Below, piece by piece: positions 2,752 to 9,464 of a stretch of 9,464 nt of DNA. The number at the start of each line of letters is the position of its first letter. Position 1 is the first letter of the stretch. The stretch spans positions 1 to 9,464 of the forward strand of contig JALOPK010000103.1 in NCBI GenBank assembly GCA_025453925.1. The letters run 5' to 3'. Below the pieces are notes generated by a model that did no database searches, had not been told where the DNA came from, and saw only the letters and a program-made list of their open reading frames with translations. The position numbers were made by a program, and so were the translations under genes. The stretch comes from Candidatus Eiseniibacteriota bacterium (GTDB taxonomy: Bacteria; JAFGKV01).

Positions 2752-5706
2752 CTATCGGATCAAGATGTAGGGCTTGGTGGCGCTGAGTTGCAGGTCGTCA
2801 GACTCGAATGCGAGCCTGCAGACGTAGCGCCCCGAAGGCAGCGTCGAAGTCGGCGCCCACGAGAGCGACCGCCATCCGGACCCCAACTCCTCCCCGTCCA
2901 TCATGGACGCCACGCGCCGGCCGGCGATGTCATAGAGGTCCATGGACACCATGCCGGGGGCAGGCAGGAAGAAGCGAACCGAAGCCGGCCCATTGGTGGG
3001 AGTCGGCCTGGGCTGCACGAGCCACAGCGTCGTTGGTCCGCCGAGAGTGGTCACGTCCACCGGCCCGAATAGCGTGCCGACACCCGATGGCGCTACCGCT
3101 TCCAGCCAGTAGAAGTAGGTCTGACCCGGCTCGACGCCTTCGTCCTTGAACGATGTCGAGGTTACCATGCCGCCATTGAGTTGGCGCCACGATTCAGTCT
3201 CGGCCGTCACGTTGCGGTACACATTGTATCCGGCGATCTCCCATGTCACCGTGGGCGACCATGAGAGCGTCACGGCGCCCTCGCGGGAGCTTGCCGAGAG
3301 GCCCGCTAACTCGATATCCTCATCGACCGGGCTCCCGGTGGACACGATAGTACGCATGAAGTAGGTCTCGTTCCAGGTATCCCAGGTCGTACCGTTGAAG
3401 TCCCACGCGCGGCCGTTATCGGCAGAGTCATACCCGTAGGTGGGCGTGTTCACCCCATCATAGAACATGCAGACCAGGAACTCGGCCGTGACCTGCTTGT
3501 TCTGCGCGGACACGTCGACCTCGAACCACCCGGTACCGGTCGGCGTGGCCGTCACGGCGTTGGTGATCTGGTTGCCGGTGACCGTGTCATACGTGCGGGC
3601 ACTGAACGAGCCATTGCCGCCACCAGCGCCACTGAGGGAGTTGATGTAGTACTTCAACTTCTTGATGGTAGCGGGAAACTGCGGCGGGGTCATCTGAACG
3701 CCGGAGCCTTGGCCCGCGCTAGGCCAGTAGTAGCCGCTGCTGGGTGTTCCGTCATCGTAGATGAGTTCCACGGTCTGCCCGGGTCCGCCCCCGCCCATCG
3801 CCTGCACTGCTGCGTAGGCATCGAGCTTACCCCAGCCGAAGTCCTTCTGCCATCCCTGCCCGGTGTAGGAGTCGTGGCGGGCGGTGTTCTGGAGCGCGTC
3901 CCTGATCTCGGTGTAGGACGCCGTCGGCTTCTTGTCCAACATCAGAGCGATGCAGCCTGCGACATGCGGCGTCGCCATGCTCGTTCCCTGCATGTAGAGG
4001 TGGGCCCCATCCGGCGCCACGTAGTAGCGCTGGTTCTGCATGTAGTTGGGCTCGGCTCCTGCTGACATCACCGACGCGATGATCTGGCCGGGCGCGGCCA
4101 GATTCGGCTTCTGGCGGCCGTCGGCCGTCGGGCCGTTGCTGCTGAAGCCGGAGATTTCGCCCAGTGTCTCGCCGACATTGTAGCCGTTGCCGTCGATGTC
4201 ATACCACTGGATCTTCGTATTGTACGATCCTACGGTGATGGCCTGCTTGGAGCTGCCCGGCATCCCGACGATCGACTCCAGAGAAATGTGATCCAGCCAG
4301 TGCACGGAGTATTGATTCCGCTCGAACCAGCCATCGGTCTGGCCACCCTGCGGCACCGAGTTGTTCGCGGAGAGTCGGATCGCCCAGGTTCCCTGGGTCA
4401 CGCCGTCGTTGTAGTCCCATAGGGTGATGTTGAAGTAGCCCTTGTGGCTCACCGGGTGATTGCTGTTCGAGTACACCCATACGGTATCCCCGGAGCTCAT
4501 GATCCATCCGGGCCACGTCGTCTCGTCCGGGCCGAACATGTTGGAAACGCCGCCCCACGGATCGATGACTTCCAGGTTGAACTTGTCGCCCAGCTTGTAC
4601 CAGACCTCGAATTTGACCTCACCCGTCAGCTGATCCTCCCCGGGCGTGCCGGTAGTGAACGACATGAGCAACGGGGTGCCGGCAGTCACCTGGCCACGGG
4701 CATGCCAGTTCTGCTCCTGATCGTTGCCTGCAGCGATGCAGACGGGGATGTTGCGGGTGGTGATGAAGTTGTCGACGCCCTGTTCGAAGAGAGTTGATCC
4801 ATCATGCGGGCCCATCGTGACGCCCTGGCTCCAGCTCACGACCATCGGCTTGTTGAGCTGGGTCTTCTTCGTGTACAGGTAGGCCAAAGCATCCAGCGAA
4901 CCCATGGTGCTGGGAGAGGTGTACCAGGGCGGGGCAAATCCGTACGTGAAGATATCGGCGGAAAGGTTCGACACCATCATGATGTCGGCCTTGGGCGCCA
5001 TGCCGATGTAGCCGGCCGAGGACGCGCTGCCATCCCCTGCCGCCGTGCCGGCGCAATGAGAACCGTGTGCGCCTTCATCGGTCATGGTGCACTGGCCGGC
5101 ATCGATCTGCTGTTTGGTCCACTCGCGGCCGTAGGTGTAGCCGGAGGGGGCGGGACCGGTCTGGGACCACTGATCCCAGATGTACTGGACGCGGGTCTTG
5201 TTGGTGGCATCCAGAAAGTCGGGATGATACGGGTCGATTCCGGTATCCAGAAGGCCGACAATCACGCCGTTGCCGTCATACCCGAGTTCCGTTCGCACGC
5301 GGGTGCCGCCGCATTCGGGCACGCTGACGTCCATGCAGTTGTAGAGCCGGTATGACGCCTCGATGGCCTCCACGTCCTGCAGAAGCGCGAGCGTCTCCAG
5401 CTTCTCAAGGGGAATCCGCGCTGTCACGATGTCCCCCAGGACCGATCCGACCGATGCCCCGGCAGCTTCCAGTTCGCTGCGGGGAGCGGTGGTCTTGATG
5501 AGTACCGGGACAACGATTCCCTTCGGATCGACGGCTTTGCCCAGGGCTGCATTGGTGAAGCCCTTGGCGAACATGGCCGGATCCTTGTGGAGGAAGAGGA
5601 GCTTCGGGTCGACCTTGCGAGCTGCTTCGGGCGACATGACCGCGGCAGAGGCCATGTGAACCCAGACGAGCATGGCGAGGGCAACCAGGAGATGCGCTCT
5701 TCGCAT
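2752..5706 (-). CDS. exported S8 subtilisin-like serine protease with Fn3 and FlgD-Ig C-terminal domains
   Basis: 984 residues from the ATG at 5706, chosen over an upstream frame extension because AAGGAGG sits 5 bases before it and a signal peptide follows at once (residues 1-22, ending ASAA). Order: signal; I9-like propeptide (about 60-122, VLIKTTAP...IPLEKLETL); S8 catalytic domain with Asp154 (LLDTGID), His214 (HGSHCAG), oxyanion Asn328 (AAGND) and Ser576 (GTSMATPHVAG); an inserted beta-rich segment at about 335-475 inside the catalytic domain; a secreted beta-sandwich at about 645-790 beginning ELIYDDGTPSSGYYWP; an Fn3 domain at about 798-887; and a FlgD-Ig/T9SS-type-A-like domain at about 895-984 (QPRPTPTNG, LYDIAGRRV, LPSGRYVCRL). 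All catalytic residues are present, so it should be active. It probably acts at the cell surface or in the medium on proteins, for nutrition or processing. It is monocistronic by context, with its own long upstream region and a 3' hairpin. Confidence 0.93.
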   Translation of the reverse strand: MRRAHLLVALAMLVWVHMASAAVMSPEAARKVDPKLLFLHKDPAMFAKGFTNAALGKAVDPKGIVVPVLIKTTAPRSELEAAGASVGSVLGDIVTARIPLEKLETLALLQDVEAIEASYRLYNCMDVSVPECGGTRVRTELGYDGNGVIVGLLDTGIDPYHPDFLDATNKTRVQYIWDQWSQTGPAPSGYTYGREWTKQQIDAGQCTMTDEGAHGSHCAGTAAGDGSASSAGYIGMAPKADIMMVSNLSADIFTYGFAPPWYTSPSTMGSLDALAYLYTKKTQLNKPMVVSWSQGVTMGPHDGSTLFEQGVDNFITTRNIPVCIAAGNDQEQNWHARGQVTAGTPLLMSFTTGTPGEDQLTGEVKFEVWYKLGDKFNLEVIDPWGGVSNMFGPDETTWPGWIMSSGDTVWVYSNSNHPVSHKGYFNITLWDYNDGVTQGTWAIRLSANNSVPQGGQTDGWFERNQYSVHWLDHISLESIVGMPGSSKQAITVGSYNTKIQWYDIDGNGYNVGETLGEISGFSSNGPTADGRQKPNLAAPGQIIASVMSAGAEPNYMQNQRYYVAPDGAHLYMQGTSMATPHVAGCIALMLDKKPTASYTEIRDALQNTARHDSYTGQGWQKDFGWGKLDAYAAVQAMGGGGPGQTVELIYDDGTPSSGYYWPSAGQGSGVQMTPPQFPATIKKLKYYINSLSGAGGGNGSFSARTYDTVTGNQITNAVTATPTGTGWFEVDVSAQNKQVTAEFLVCMFYDGVNTPTYGYDSADNGRAWDFNGTTWDTWNETYFMRTIVSTGSPVDEDIELAGLSASSREGAVTLSWSPTVTWEIAGYNVYRNVTAETESWRQLNGGMVTSTSFKDEGVEPGQTYFYWLEAVAPSGVGTLFGPVDVTTLGGPTTLWLVQPRPTPTNGPASVRFFLPAPGMVSMDLYDIAGRRVASMMDGEELGSGWRSLSWAPTSTLPSGRYVCRLAFESDDLQLSATKPYILIR

Positions 5707-5710
5707 TACA

Positions 5711-5718
5711 CCCTCCTT
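5711..5718 (-). promoter_or_regulatory. ribosome binding site fixing the subtilase start
   Basis: The minus strand reads AAGGAGGG (5718-5711) four bases before the ATG at 5706. This supports that start over an ATG-like codon 12 residues upstream. Confidence 0.8.
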
Positions 5719-5746
5719 CGGTGCACAGAGACAACCTGGCACGACT

Positions 5747-6257: not shown

Positions 6258-7751
6258 CTACGAAAGCAGGAACTTCTCGCCCCGGGATTCGCCGACCGCG
6301 GATACGCGGATGGCGGGCAGATCCTTGACGGGGCAGTGGTATTGGCAGATGCCGCATCCCGTGCAGCGCGTCGGGTCGATCTGCGGTCGCTTGAGCGTCA
6401 CAGTGGAGCCGTCCCGCGCCTGGATCACGACTTCGCGCGTCCAGATCGCCTTGGGCGAGACGGGGCAGACCTCTTCGCACACTACGCACGGCGTGTCCAT
6501 CGCCCATGGGAGGCAGCGACCCAGGTCGTAGAACGCGGTGCCGATCCTCACCGGCCCCCGATCGGGCGACTCCTGCCCGAGTTTGGCCGAGGGGGTGAGA
6601 GCCTGAATTGCCCCGGTCGGGCACACATGACCGCACAGGACGCATGATACCTCGCAGTAGCCGGCGTCGAAGCGCATGACCGGAGTCCAGAACCCCTCGA
6701 TTCCGGCCTCGGATGTCGCGAGCTGAATCACGCCGGTCGGGCACGATCGGGCGCACATTCCGCATCGCGCACACCGCGCCAGAAAATCGGTCTCAGGCAG
6801 CGCCCCGGGGGGGCGGATCCGCCGCTCCGCGGGAGCCTTCGGCGAGGGTGAGCCGCTGCGAATCACCGGCCAGGCAATAAGCCCCGCCAGAGCGGCGATG
6901 GCCGCCCGTCTGCCCCTGACATCGGGAGTTCGACGCTCAGGGACCGGCCTGCCCACTTGGCCGCACGCGATCGCGTTCTCAGGGCAGGCAGTTCGGCAGT
7001 TCATGCACAGGATGCACTCGGACCGCGCCACCTCAGTACTGGGTGCCGCCGCGCCGTTGCAGGACAGCTCACACACACCGCAGTTCGTGCAGGCTCCCGG
7101 GTCGCGGCGAATGCCGAAGGGGGTCCATCGCGTGAGGAGCCCCAGCATCGCCCCCAAGGGGCACAGAGCGCGGCACCAGAACCGGGGCACCGCCAGGTTG
7201 GCGAGCAAGACGGTCGCCAGCAGCAGCGCCGGGAGAATACCGCCGGGAAACCGTGGGTCATGGCTGAACACGGGAACGCCCACACCGGCCAGTAGTGGCC
7301 CAAAGAGGCTCTGGATCCCCCGCGCCGTCAACGACAGAGGATCCAGGAGCCCCACCAGGAGCGTGCCCAGCAACGAACTCACCAAAAGGCCCGTGAGGAG
7401 GTAGTACTTGGCGGCAAACAGCGGGCGCGGCGCATTGGCGCTTCGACGGCCCGCGGGACGGCGCCGGCGCATCGAGCTCACGGCGTCATTCATGCACCCC
7501 AGGGGGCAGACCCAGCCGCAGAACGCGCGCCCCAGAAAGAGAGTCACCACCACGACTGCCAGAGAGAGCGCCAGCGACCCGTGGAGCGTTCGGCTCGACA
7601 GCATGGTACCGACTGCCAAGAGGGGGTCCGCGTGGAAGAACAGGTCGACTGGCCAGCCACGAATCCAGCCGGTACGCCCGGCCGTCAGCAAGACCAAGAA
7701 GAGCAGGAGGAAGAACCCCTGGTAGGCGCGGCGGACGGCCCGGTGAGTCAT
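6258..7751 (-). CDS. membrane-bound polyferredoxin, NapH-NapG-like fusion
   Basis: 497 residues from the ATG at 7751. The N-terminal half is NapH/NosR-C-terminus-like: four predicted membrane helices (about 10-30, 58-77, 116-138, 170-189), the two family motifs FCGWVCPLG (77-85) and WCRALCPLG (192-200), then two ferredoxin motifs, CTNCGVCELSC (221-231) and CILCMNCRTACP (246-257). A fifth hydrophobic segment preceded by arginines (about 279-299) resembles a NapG Tat-type leader kept as an internal anchor. The C-terminal half is NapG/MauM-like with four cluster motifs: CARCGMCARSCP (327-338), Cys366-Cys377, Cys413-Cys429 including the long C-x8-C spacing, and CTGCGICQYHCP (463-474). Six [4Fe-4S] clusters are therefore predicted. 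Expected topology puts the first two in the cytoplasm and the last four in the periplasm, suggesting electron transfer from quinol or a cytoplasmic donor to an exported acceptor. It follows the DUF362 gene on the same strand after a 527-base repeat-rich gap. The true electron partner is unknown. Confidence 0.9.
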   Translation of the reverse strand: MTHRAVRRAYQGFFLLLFLVLLTAGRTGWIRGWPVDLFFHADPLLAVGTMLSSRTLHGSLALSLAVVVVTLFLGRAFCGWVCPLGCMNDAVSSMRRRRPAGRRSANAPRPLFAAKYYLLTGLLVSSLLGTLLVGLLDPLSLTARGIQSLFGPLLAGVGVPVFSHDPRFPGGILPALLLATVLLANLAVPRFWCRALCPLGAMLGLLTRWTPFGIRRDPGACTNCGVCELSCNGAAAPSTEVARSECILCMNCRTACPENAIACGQVGRPVPERRTPDVRGRRAAIAALAGLIAWPVIRSGSPSPKAPAERRIRPPGALPETDFLARCARCGMCARSCPTGVIQLATSEAGIEGFWTPVMRFDAGYCEVSCVLCGHVCPTGAIQALTPSAKLGQESPDRGPVRIGTAFYDLGRCLPWAMDTPCVVCEEVCPVSPKAIWTREVVIQARDGSTVTLKRPQIDPTRCTGCGICQYHCPVKDLPAIRVSAVGESRGEKFLLS

Positions 7752-7776
7752 GTCAATTCTCAGTAATCAGTCGGGT

Positions 7777-7800
7777 CTCTGGGTGCGAGGGCACCCAGGG
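7777..7800. repeat. perfect hairpin in the polyferredoxin leader
   Basis: CTGGGTGC (7779-7786) pairs with GCACCCAG (7791-7798) around GAGG, and two outer pairs (one G-U) extend the stem to 10 bp. It lies 25 bases upstream of the polyferredoxin ATG and could shape its mRNA 5' end. The Shine-Dalgarno itself is weak (TGAGAA), so structure here may matter for translation. Confidence 0.5.
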
Positions 7801-7835
7801 TTTTCAAGGTTGAGAGTACGCCGGCTTGTTGTAGC

Positions 7836-7876
7836 CACGCCGCTCTGCGGCGTGCCGCCCGGCGCGGAGCGCCGGG
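7836..7876. repeat. pair of adjacent perfect palindromic hairpins
   Basis: CACGCCGC-TCT-GCGGCGTG (7836-7854) is followed 3 bases later by CCCGGCGC-GGA-GCGCCGGG (7858-7876). Both are perfect 8-bp stems with 3-base loops. The arrangement looks like a REP/BIME-type intergenic repeat rather than a terminator, as no T-run follows. Confidence 0.6.
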
Positions 7877-7900
7877 GCGACAGTCCGTGGTGTGCCACGC

Positions 7901-8032
7901 CATCTCCTCGCCCAGCGGGGGAGGAGATGGGTGAGGGGGCACAAGGCCTGGGGCTCTCGGCCCTCCGCCGTCAGCTATCAGCCGCAGGAGTCTCGCTGGC
8001 CCCCTCATCCTGCCTTCTCCGTGGGGAGAAGG
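7901..8032. repeat. composite inverted-repeat element of the 'CCCCTCACCC...CTCTCC' type
   Basis: Two terminal hairpins, CATCTCCTC/GAGGAGATG (7901-7909 with 7921-7929) and CCTTCTCC/GGAGAAGG (8013-8020 with 8025-8032), flank a long-range inverted pair, GGGTGAGGGGGC (7929-7940) with GCCCCCTCATCC (7999-8010), which has one G-U position. The whole folds as a cruciform-like element of about 130 bp. This sequence class is common as dispersed intergenic repeats in bacterial genomes. It is non-coding; short frames crossing it translate into PSPHGEGR-like strings that are a known artefact. Confidence 0.65.
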
Positions 8033-8246
8033 GGTGTTCTCCCTGCCCGGTCCCCGGTTCGCACTCGCCCTGCGCCGCCTACCCATGGCTGTTCGCGCCA
8101 GGGCGGAGTGTTTCGACATAGAGCGGAACTCTCACGCGCCACCGAAACTCCTCCCCACAGTGTCGAGTATCTCCTGCGGCCCGTGGCCAGGGGGAAGCCG
8201 CCAGGGTGGGAGTGGAATCGGACATGGTGAACATCTCGCGCAACAG
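8033..8246. other. gene-free stretch between repeat element and DUF362 3' end
   Basis: I see no credible coding region. Short frames (such as minus 8079-8393 or plus 8034-8255) have no ribosome binding site, no recognisable domain and arginine/proline-rich products. No clear promoter was found for the downstream polyferredoxin gene. Confidence 0.5.
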
Positions 8247-8272
8247 GAAAGCTGAGAGCCGAAAGCTGAGAG
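8247..8272. repeat. two-copy 14-bp tandem repeat
   Basis: GAAAGCTGAGAG occurs at 8247-8258 and 8261-8272, period 14, with a 2-base linker, 6 bases past the DUF362 stop. It resembles the short CTGAGAGC-type tandem repeats often found in intergenic DNA. Confidence 0.5.
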
Positions 8273-8278
8273 CTCGTG

Positions 8279-9235
8279 TCACGTCGTCACAGGATTCAGG
8301 GTGCGCCACAGAGACGTGCCGACGCCGCGACGTTCCGCTTCCATGATGCTTGGCACGTCGGATGCCCGCCTCCCCATGAGCTCCGCCGCCCACGCATCAA
8401 GGGCGACTTGATCGGTGCCCGCCGCGATCTGCTCGGTCGCCACCACGTCGGATGCCCGCCCGCCGGTGGGACCGTTTCGTACCAGCGCGCGGGTTCCATC
8501 CACCACTACCAGCGTGGGGACGAAAGCGCCCGCCAGGTCGGCGATCACCACGTCGAGTTTCTGGTGAAACGAGTTGCGGCCGCCGGCCAGGAATCCATAC
8601 CAGTTCTTCATCGTCGCGGAGAGGCCGGCCAGATTGTGATCCTTCACCGCTGGAATGCCGATCAGCCGGTCGGCGCGTTCGAGGAGCCCCGCCAGCCCTT
8701 CCCATGTCTGGATGGCCTCTCCCGCAACCGCAATGGGGCCCATGTGGGAGGCTGCAGGGAGCATCACGGTTCCGCCTCCCTGCTCCACCGCCGTGCCGAT
8801 CTGACTCACCGCGAAGCACCGCAACGGGTTGTTGATCGGGTTGTCCGCGACCATGACCTCCCGGGCGCCCGCCTCCTTGCACAGCCGTACCACGGCCAAC
8901 ACGACGGCGGGTGACGTGGTTGCGCCAAACGACGGCGGACGGTCGAATCCCACATTGGGCTTGATCAGAACCCGCTCACCCGGGCGAACGAAGCGTCCCA
9001 TTCCCCCCATTGCCTCGACTACCCGCCTGACCGCCGATCCGGGATCAGCCGCGCCCGAAACGGCCATGGCAGACGCCGGAGAGTCGAGGCCCTGCCGGTA
9101 GTCAGGGAGACGAGCGCCTTCCCCGCCTCGGCGGACTGGACGTTCATGGAGCAGGGCATAGCCGCCCCCGAGGCAGACGGTCGCCGCGGATGCTCTGGCC
9201 ACCAGCGTCAGGAACGATCGGCGGTCGGGTCTCAT
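8279..9235 (-). CDS. Tat-exported DUF362 family protein
   Basis: 318 residues from the ATG at 9235, with GGAG 9-12 bases upstream. The N-terminus carries a twin-arginine signal (DRRSFLTL, residues 4-11, then a hydrophobic core to about 29), so the protein is probably exported folded. DUF362 (PF04015) features follow: VLIKPNVGF (89-97), SPAVVLAVVRLCKEAGA (108-124), a VADNP strand end (129-133), GIPAVKDHNLAGLSATMKN (193-211), VVVDGTRALVRNGPTGG (243-259) and AGTDQVALDAWAAELMG (272-288). The C-terminal ferredoxin domain of some DUF362 proteins is absent, and the few cysteines (21, 119, 140) form no cluster motif. The ATG overlaps the upstream DUF6599-like stop (ATGA), so the two are translationally coupled, and the polyferredoxin gene follows. 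Biochemical function is unknown for the family. A 17-bp exact repeat lies inside the gene (8354-8370, 8444-8460). Confidence 0.9.
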   Translation of the reverse strand: MRPDRRSFLTLVARASAATVCLGGGYALLHERPVRRGGEGARLPDYRQGLDSPASAMAVSGAADPGSAVRRVVEAMGGMGRFVRPGERVLIKPNVGFDRPPSFGATTSPAVVLAVVRLCKEAGAREVMVADNPINNPLRCFAVSQIGTAVEQGGGTVMLPAASHMGPIAVAGEAIQTWEGLAGLLERADRLIGIPAVKDHNLAGLSATMKNWYGFLAGGRNSFHQKLDVVIADLAGAFVPTLVVVDGTRALVRNGPTGGRASDVVATEQIAAGTDQVALDAWAAELMGRRASDVPSIMEAERRGVGTSLWRTLNPVTT

Positions 9236-9464
9236 GACGAAAGCTCCAGAAGCCGTGTGCCCAACGCCCGCACGGCCTCTCGGGTCCGAGGCGTGTCGGA
9301 GGCGGCTTGGATCTGCACGTACAGAGCGCCCCGCGTCATGAACAGACTCGCTGCGGAGAAGTACCCTCCGAACCCGGGGTCTTCGACCGCATCAGGAGGC
9401 CGTTCCAGATCATACATGACTCGAGCCTGATCACCCTGATCGAACAGAAACGCCTCCACGTAGT
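9232..9464 (-). CDS. DUF6599-like protein, C-terminal fragment
   Basis: Only the last 76 codons are in the window; the frame is open to the window edge at 9464 and stops with TGA at 9234-9232. The pattern fits the C-terminal part of DUF6599 proteins: AFLFDQGDQARVMYDLERPPDAVEDPG, then GGYFSAASLFMTRGALYVQIQAA and a final helix (TREAVRALGTRLLEL). These proteins are usually secreted, commonly lie next to DUF362 and Fe-S genes, and have no known activity. Here the stop shares ATGA with the DUF362 start. The family call rests on remembered pattern and neighbourhood, not on a search. Confidence 0.65.
   Translation of the reverse strand, partial: YVEAFLFDQGDQARVMYDLERPPDAVEDPGFGGYFSAASLFMTRGALYVQIQAASDTPRTREAVRALGTRLLELSS

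Follow-up and report, generated by a model that had tools for sequence, protein, structure and literature searches.

The window analysed here, 9,464 nt long, is an entire contig (JALOPK010000103.1; C65 in our numbering) from the draft genome of a Candidatus Eiseniibacteriota bacterium (GCA_025453925.1; 3.9 Mb, 82% complete, 502 contigs). Three genes stand on its minus strand. In order of transcription, these are a DUF6599 gene of which only the end is present (9462-9232), DUF362 (9235-8279), and a membrane polyferredoxin gene (7751-6258); this last gene and its product are called PFd below. We propose, with modest confidence, that the set encodes an envelope redox module in which PFd passes quinol-linked electrons through the membrane and on to a DUF362 protein that is exported and performs a reduction at a Lys/His site, with DUF6599 acting as a membrane accessory. 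The computational evidence behind the proposal comprises the gene set and its conservation, two gene fusions, the cluster motifs and export signals, a predicted fold, and conserved residues.

The arrangement of the genes was as the sequence-only reading had described it: the DUF6599-like gene and the DUF362 gene, the latter encoding a signal for twin-arginine translocation (Tat), are joined by an ATGA stop/start overlap (9235-9232), and a six-cluster membrane polyferredoxin follows on the same strand. Named genomes were then scanned using a PFd profile, which yielded 80 PFd loci. These loci span Nitrospirota, Nitrospinota, Planctomycetes, Acidobacteria, Myxococcales and other delta-type Proteobacteria, Gammaproteobacteria, Magnetococcales, Verrucomicrobia, Kiritimatiellae, Gemmatimonadetes, Armatimonadetes, Sumerlaeota, Aminicenantes, Wallbacteria, Bacteroidetes, and Ignavibacteria. 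A same-strand DUF362 gene occurred within 1.7 kb of PFd at 67 of the 80 loci and, among loci with long flanks, at 42 of 49. As a background, only four DUF362 matches were found in 293 kb of DNA lying more than 3 kb from PFd. DUF6599 is an optional third member of the set: it was present at 36 of the 80 loci, at 33 of them together with DUF362. The commonest order was DUF6599-DUF362-PFd, with PFd-DUF6599-DUF362 also occurring in Acidobacteria. Finally, PFd and DUF6599 were fused in single open reading frames (ORFs) in two Bryobacterales loci (L133:5939-7987 and L137:2960-4981).

The PFd profile had been seeded from loci found via DUF6599, and a sample that started from DUF362 provided an independent check. 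In the DUF6599-first sample, DUF362 lay within 1.5 kb at 19 of the 28 sites with full flanks. In the DUF362-first sample, exported DUF362 proteins devoid of ferredoxin motifs adjoined PFd in 16 of 20 cases and ferredoxin-bearing ones in none of seven (Fisher P 4e-4). Because members of this sample had been picked from a score-ranked list according to ORF length, the figures serve as a contrast rather than as a measure of frequency. Thus, the co-occurrence of the three families across genomes, on which the sequence-only reading had made its case depend, survived the survey. The same contrast, together with the NapH-NapG fusion anatomy of PFd, supports that reading's suggestion that DUF362 receives its ferredoxin function in trans. 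The survey already refutes an accidental neighbourhood of three genes without a shared function, a notion to which we assign virtually no probability: it is favoured by the breadth and repeat content of the gap that separates DUF362 from PFd here and by the optional nature of DUF6599, but the pairing is conserved over many phyla, often with 4-bp overlaps, and includes the two gene fusions.

The gap in question (7752-8278, minus strand) measures 527 bp, compared with 211 bp in a genome of the same genus (G001) and 395 bp in one of the same family (G002); elsewhere, the spacing between DUF362 and PFd is often between -4 and +100 bp. It consists largely of two interspersed repeat families (approximately 7883-8174 and 7752-7883), with 44 matches in the same genome: dozens of partial copies are up to 91-95% identical. 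Because the gap is wide and filled with repeats, co-transcription of DUF362 and PFd can only be presumed in this genome. No consensus promoter was found between 6000 and 9464, and the number of terminator-like sites in this interval was near that expected by chance. An ORF within the gap (7760-8119) was rejected as a gene: it matched no family and is probably a reading of repeat DNA.

PFd (6258-7751, 497 residues) is a NapH-NapG-like fusion recognized by Fer4_5, Fer4_7, and other Fer4 matches, with five hydrophobic segments and 24 cysteines arranged in six [4Fe-4S] motifs. Four of the hydrophobic segments (residues 12-30, 60-78, 118-136, and 170-188) precede two cluster motifs at C221-C256. 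A twin arginine, R281-R282, then stands directly before the fifth segment (residues 283-301), whose hydrophobicity is weak (Kyte-Doolittle score 1.41), and positive charges lie by or after this segment (R298, K306, R310, and R311). Encoded at 6849-6911, the twin arginine and this fifth transmembrane (TM) segment, TM5, constitute an internal Tat-like signal, an addition to the sequence-only reading; the arginine pair in the linker was kept in practically all 80 PFd homologues. The C-terminal, NapG-like half (6258-6815) contains four clusters, with 16 motif cysteines in residues 327-473, and is predicted to lie outside the cytoplasm. The best NCBIfam matches of PFd were NapG (88.3 bits; cut-off 269) and NapH (70.2; cut-off 234), both far under their cut-offs, with NapH/MauN scoring 84.9 (cut-off 213).

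A class of polytopic polyferredoxins that are NapH-NapG fusions requires both the general secretion (Sec) and Tat pathways (Tooke et al. 2017, PMC5449189). Reporter fusions demonstrated export by Tat of the part after TM5, for the MLMS-1 protein only (PMC5449189). Neither a function nor a partner of the DUF362 or DUF6599 families is named in the study (PMC5449189). PFd shares with the MLMS-1 protein (Q1NSB0) the NapH-NapG fusion anatomy with five TM segments, the twin arginine before a weakly hydrophobic TM5, the positive charges, and the four clusters that follow. It is by this common anatomy, namely a NapH-like part of four TM segments with two motifs and a twin arginine before TM5, that we place PFd in the dual Sec-Tat class. 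By this anatomy, two clusters should be on the cytoplasmic side and four outside.

The DUF362 protein (8279-9235, 318 residues) contains no ferredoxin motif and matched PF04015 with 143.9 bits (cut-off 24). Its N-terminus, MRPDRRSFLTLVARASAA, includes a Tat-type signal (RRSFLTLVARASAA..., residues 1-29, encoded at 9149-9235) that the structural model renders as a helix from residue 5 to 29. The twin arginine, R5 and R6, was invariant in 52 aligned module proteins, although only five of these matched the Pfam TAT_signal model. The AlphaFold2 model of the protein had a mean predicted local distance difference test score (pLDDT) of 93.3 and resembled the N-domain of the lactate/malate racemases (LarA): twelve LarA-type entries gave Z scores of 14.8-17.2 over approximately 205 residues, with the next fold at 5.6. 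The protein aligned to LarA residues 34-270 only, the LarA C-domain being absent. A LarA-like fold was to be expected since DUF362 and the LarA N-domain belong to the same Pfam clan (PMC11770544); what the present analysis adds is the positions of the conserved residues.

These residues form the motif H200-x9-K210-N-x12-H224 (8564-8638). Motifs of the type H-x9-KN-x(10-14)-H were present in 93 of 103 DUF362 domains, the last histidine usually falling 13-15 residues past the lysine. In alignments of hidden Markov models, H200 and K210 of DUF362 were placed on H174 and K184 of LarA, with weak individual scores (E 0.01-1); we take K184 to be the lysine that carries the nickel-pincer nucleotide (NPN). 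By these weak alignments, the third histidine of the motif was ambiguous as a counterpart of LarA H200, and LarA H108 had no clear equivalent. A comparison of DUF362 with LarA using HHalign was likewise weak (E 0.014, probability 3%). The DUF362 of the window gave no match to PF09861 (Lar_N) at E 1 or better, and a sequence search returned no relatives in the PDB. Judged by its model, DUF362 is LarA-like in fold and is not a LarA. The genome as a whole has 12 PF04015 matches (for example on contigs C323, C375, and C194), some with ferredoxin motifs of their own; on C323, DUF6599 and DUF362 are paired a second time, there without PFd.

In LarA, a lysine holds the NPN (PMC12611868). DUF362 might likewise be an NPN enzyme in which K210 holds the cofactor as K184 does in LarA, the loaded protein is exported by Tat, and PFd converts the internal hydride chemistry into a net oxidation or reduction of a 2-hydroxy acid. 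We consider this unlikely. It fits the fold and the aligned His and Lys positions, and about 15% of genomes, with larBCE but no larA, make NPN while lacking LarA (PMC11796402). For this reason, the idea was tested through the co-occurrence of LarC. The genome under study contains LarC (C361 and C372) and LarE (C180), and no LarA (PF09861) was found in its 82% complete assembly. Of 50 module genomes, 46 had LarC; 15 module genomes lack LarA, and every one of these has LarC. Further, DUF362 and LarC occurred together in 193 genomes (odds ratio 9.2, P 2e-12), and the odds ratio was 7 among genomes without LarA. Within one phylum, however, LarC was equally frequent in genomes with PFd (68 of 78) and without it (58 of 70), and five module genomes that are more than 90% complete (G001, G263, G308, G334, and G352) have no LarC. 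The raw LarC signal is therefore largely phylogenetic, and NPN was rejected as an obligatory cofactor of the module. Moreover, inspection of approximately 40 LarC or LarE regions revealed only distant or weak cases of linkage between larC and DUF362 genes, LarA H108 lacks a clear equivalent, the nickel-ligand histidine is ambiguous, and the C-domain is missing. When PFd was required to score above 400 bits, a threshold picked afterwards, the contrast in LarC was 37 of 38 versus 89 of 110 (P 0.015), so a partial link between PFd and LarC may exist. At most, NPN is used by some members of the module.

The DUF6599 gene is cut by the contig edge, leaving the C-terminal 76 residues (9232-9462). Residues 2-71 of this fragment aligned to positions 54-124 of the PF20244 profile with 26 bits against a cut-off of 27, and with 27 bits when frame neighbours were included. 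Homologues occupy the same position in G001 and G002. The model of a homologue comprised a single membrane helix at the N-terminus and two domains of periplasmic type, which resembled the PknH sensor domain (Z 11.9), TM1622 (Z 10.8), and RseB (Z 7.5); a Foldseek search produced no significant match. A role of DUF6599 as an enzyme was rejected, the best structural matches being sensor-like domains. The modelled fold suggests an accessory role, bearing in mind that a shared fold shows no function.

Two further groups of genes recur near the set. One is that of Tat-type aldo/keto reductases, found at 14 of the 80 loci (e.g. L091:7774-8952, L088:2577-3767, and L133:4603-5793); some of these enzymes have an Fe-S domain at the C-terminus. 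In several lineages, the AmmeMemoRadiSam set, comprising a TIGR04337 radical SAM protein and Memo-AMMECR1, forms operon-like arrays with exported DUF362 (L044:274-4561, L156, L157, L124, L133, L113, and L269). The order in L269 is Memo-AMMECR1, radical SAM, PFd, and DUF362 in succession. L044 is on contig C241 of the genome under study, and its DUF362 is a different paralogue from that of the window. The radical SAM proteins had a Tat-like twin-arginine N-terminus in all seven cases found, and Memo-AMMECR1 had a Sec-like signal. Judging by these N-termini, the radical SAM enzyme would be exported, which would be unusual.

These neighbours raise the possibility, which we regard as doubtful, that PFd and DUF362 are a device for assembly or maturation that supplies some other exported enzyme with electrons or a cofactor, DUF362 being a carrier and no enzyme. 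Candidate recipients would be the Tat-type aldo/keto reductase and the AmmeMemoRadiSam set, which has a Tat-like N-terminus and shares operons with DUF362 and sometimes PFd. Nevertheless, most PFd-DUF362 pairs stand without these partners, and the conserved Lys/His set of DUF362 resembles an active or cofactor site. A more far-reaching reading is a long shot: outside the cytoplasm, PFd might supply low-potential electrons to a LarA-fold enzyme with a cofactor tethered at its Lys/His site and, in some bacteria, also to the Tat-exported radical-SAM/Memo/AMMECR1 set of the same operon, resulting in radical or hydride chemistry in the envelope.

We return to the envelope redox module as the preferred reading. 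Specifically, the NapH-type half of PFd would take up electrons at the membrane or its cytoplasmic side, probably from quinol as in NapGH. The electrons would run along the Tat-exported four-cluster half and, through a presumed contact between the two proteins, to DUF362, the putative recipient: an exported, predicted LarA-fold protein that lacks a ferredoxin domain. With these electrons, DUF362 would carry out a reduction on the outer side at its conserved Lys/His site. The part of DUF6599 would be that of an accessory, anchored in the membrane, by which DUF362 is scaffolded or presented. Several observations weigh against this reading. With the 527-bp gap, co-transcription of DUF362 and PFd can only be presumed in this genome; 13 of the 80 PFd loci have no nearby DUF362, some of these being cut by contig ends; more than half of the PFd loci have no DUF6599 nearby; and the DUF362-first sample was selected by length. 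The direction of electron flow could also be the reverse, oxidizing a substrate outside. Finally, we found no biochemistry on any module member in the literature searched.

The remainder of the window is unrelated to the three-gene set. It contains an ORF without a family match at the opposite contig end (2-925), an ankyrin repeat protein (1110-1784), a small outer membrane beta-barrel (1899-2537), and an S8 subtilase with a C-terminal extension (2752-5742). No RNA families were found in the window.

No description of a DUF6599-DUF362-PFd module was found in open-access papers mentioning DUF362 or DUF6599, most of which were judged by title. Its parts are known separately; the combination, a variant of NapGH-type electron delivery with DUF362 as a candidate client, was not found in the literature searched. 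The LarA-like fold, the gene fusions, and the links to Tat-type aldo/keto reductases and to AmmeMemoRadiSam proteins with export signals are additions to the sequence-only reading. For the dual Sec-Tat polyferredoxin class, to which the 2017 paper assigned no client, DUF362 is now a highly conserved candidate. Similarly, the widespread DUF362 family gains an electron source and a location, along with a predicted enzyme fold and a candidate active site. Whether or not a cofactor is bound to the lysine also matters for the question of which proteins NPN serves where LarA is missing from a genome.

The module can be compared with four known systems besides the dual Sec-Tat class. Like NapGH of E. 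coli and Wolinella, PFd combines a membrane ferredoxin with a four-cluster ferredoxin, predicted to be periplasmic in PFd, with a presumed flow of electrons from quinol to the periplasm. It differs from NapGH in being one fused chain, in its sub-cut-off scores, in the lack of a nitrate reductase gene in the window, and in its candidate client, DUF362. DUF362 resembles the LarA lactate/malate racemases (PF09861) in its predicted N-domain fold and in the weakly scored alignment of the His and Lys of the NPN site; unlike them, it has no C-domain and no Lar_N match, carries a Tat-type export signal, and is paired with an electron carrier. The ferredoxin-bearing DUF362 proteins (PF04015 plus Fer4) contain the same domain, but the twin-arginine start was missing in eight of nine sampled, and they do not stand beside PFd. 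Finally, the AmmeMemoRadiSam system (TIGR04335, TIGR04336, and TIGR04337) shares operons with exported DUF362 and sometimes with PFd; in these operons, its radical SAM and Memo-AMMECR1 proteins carry export signals, and the set is absent from the window itself.

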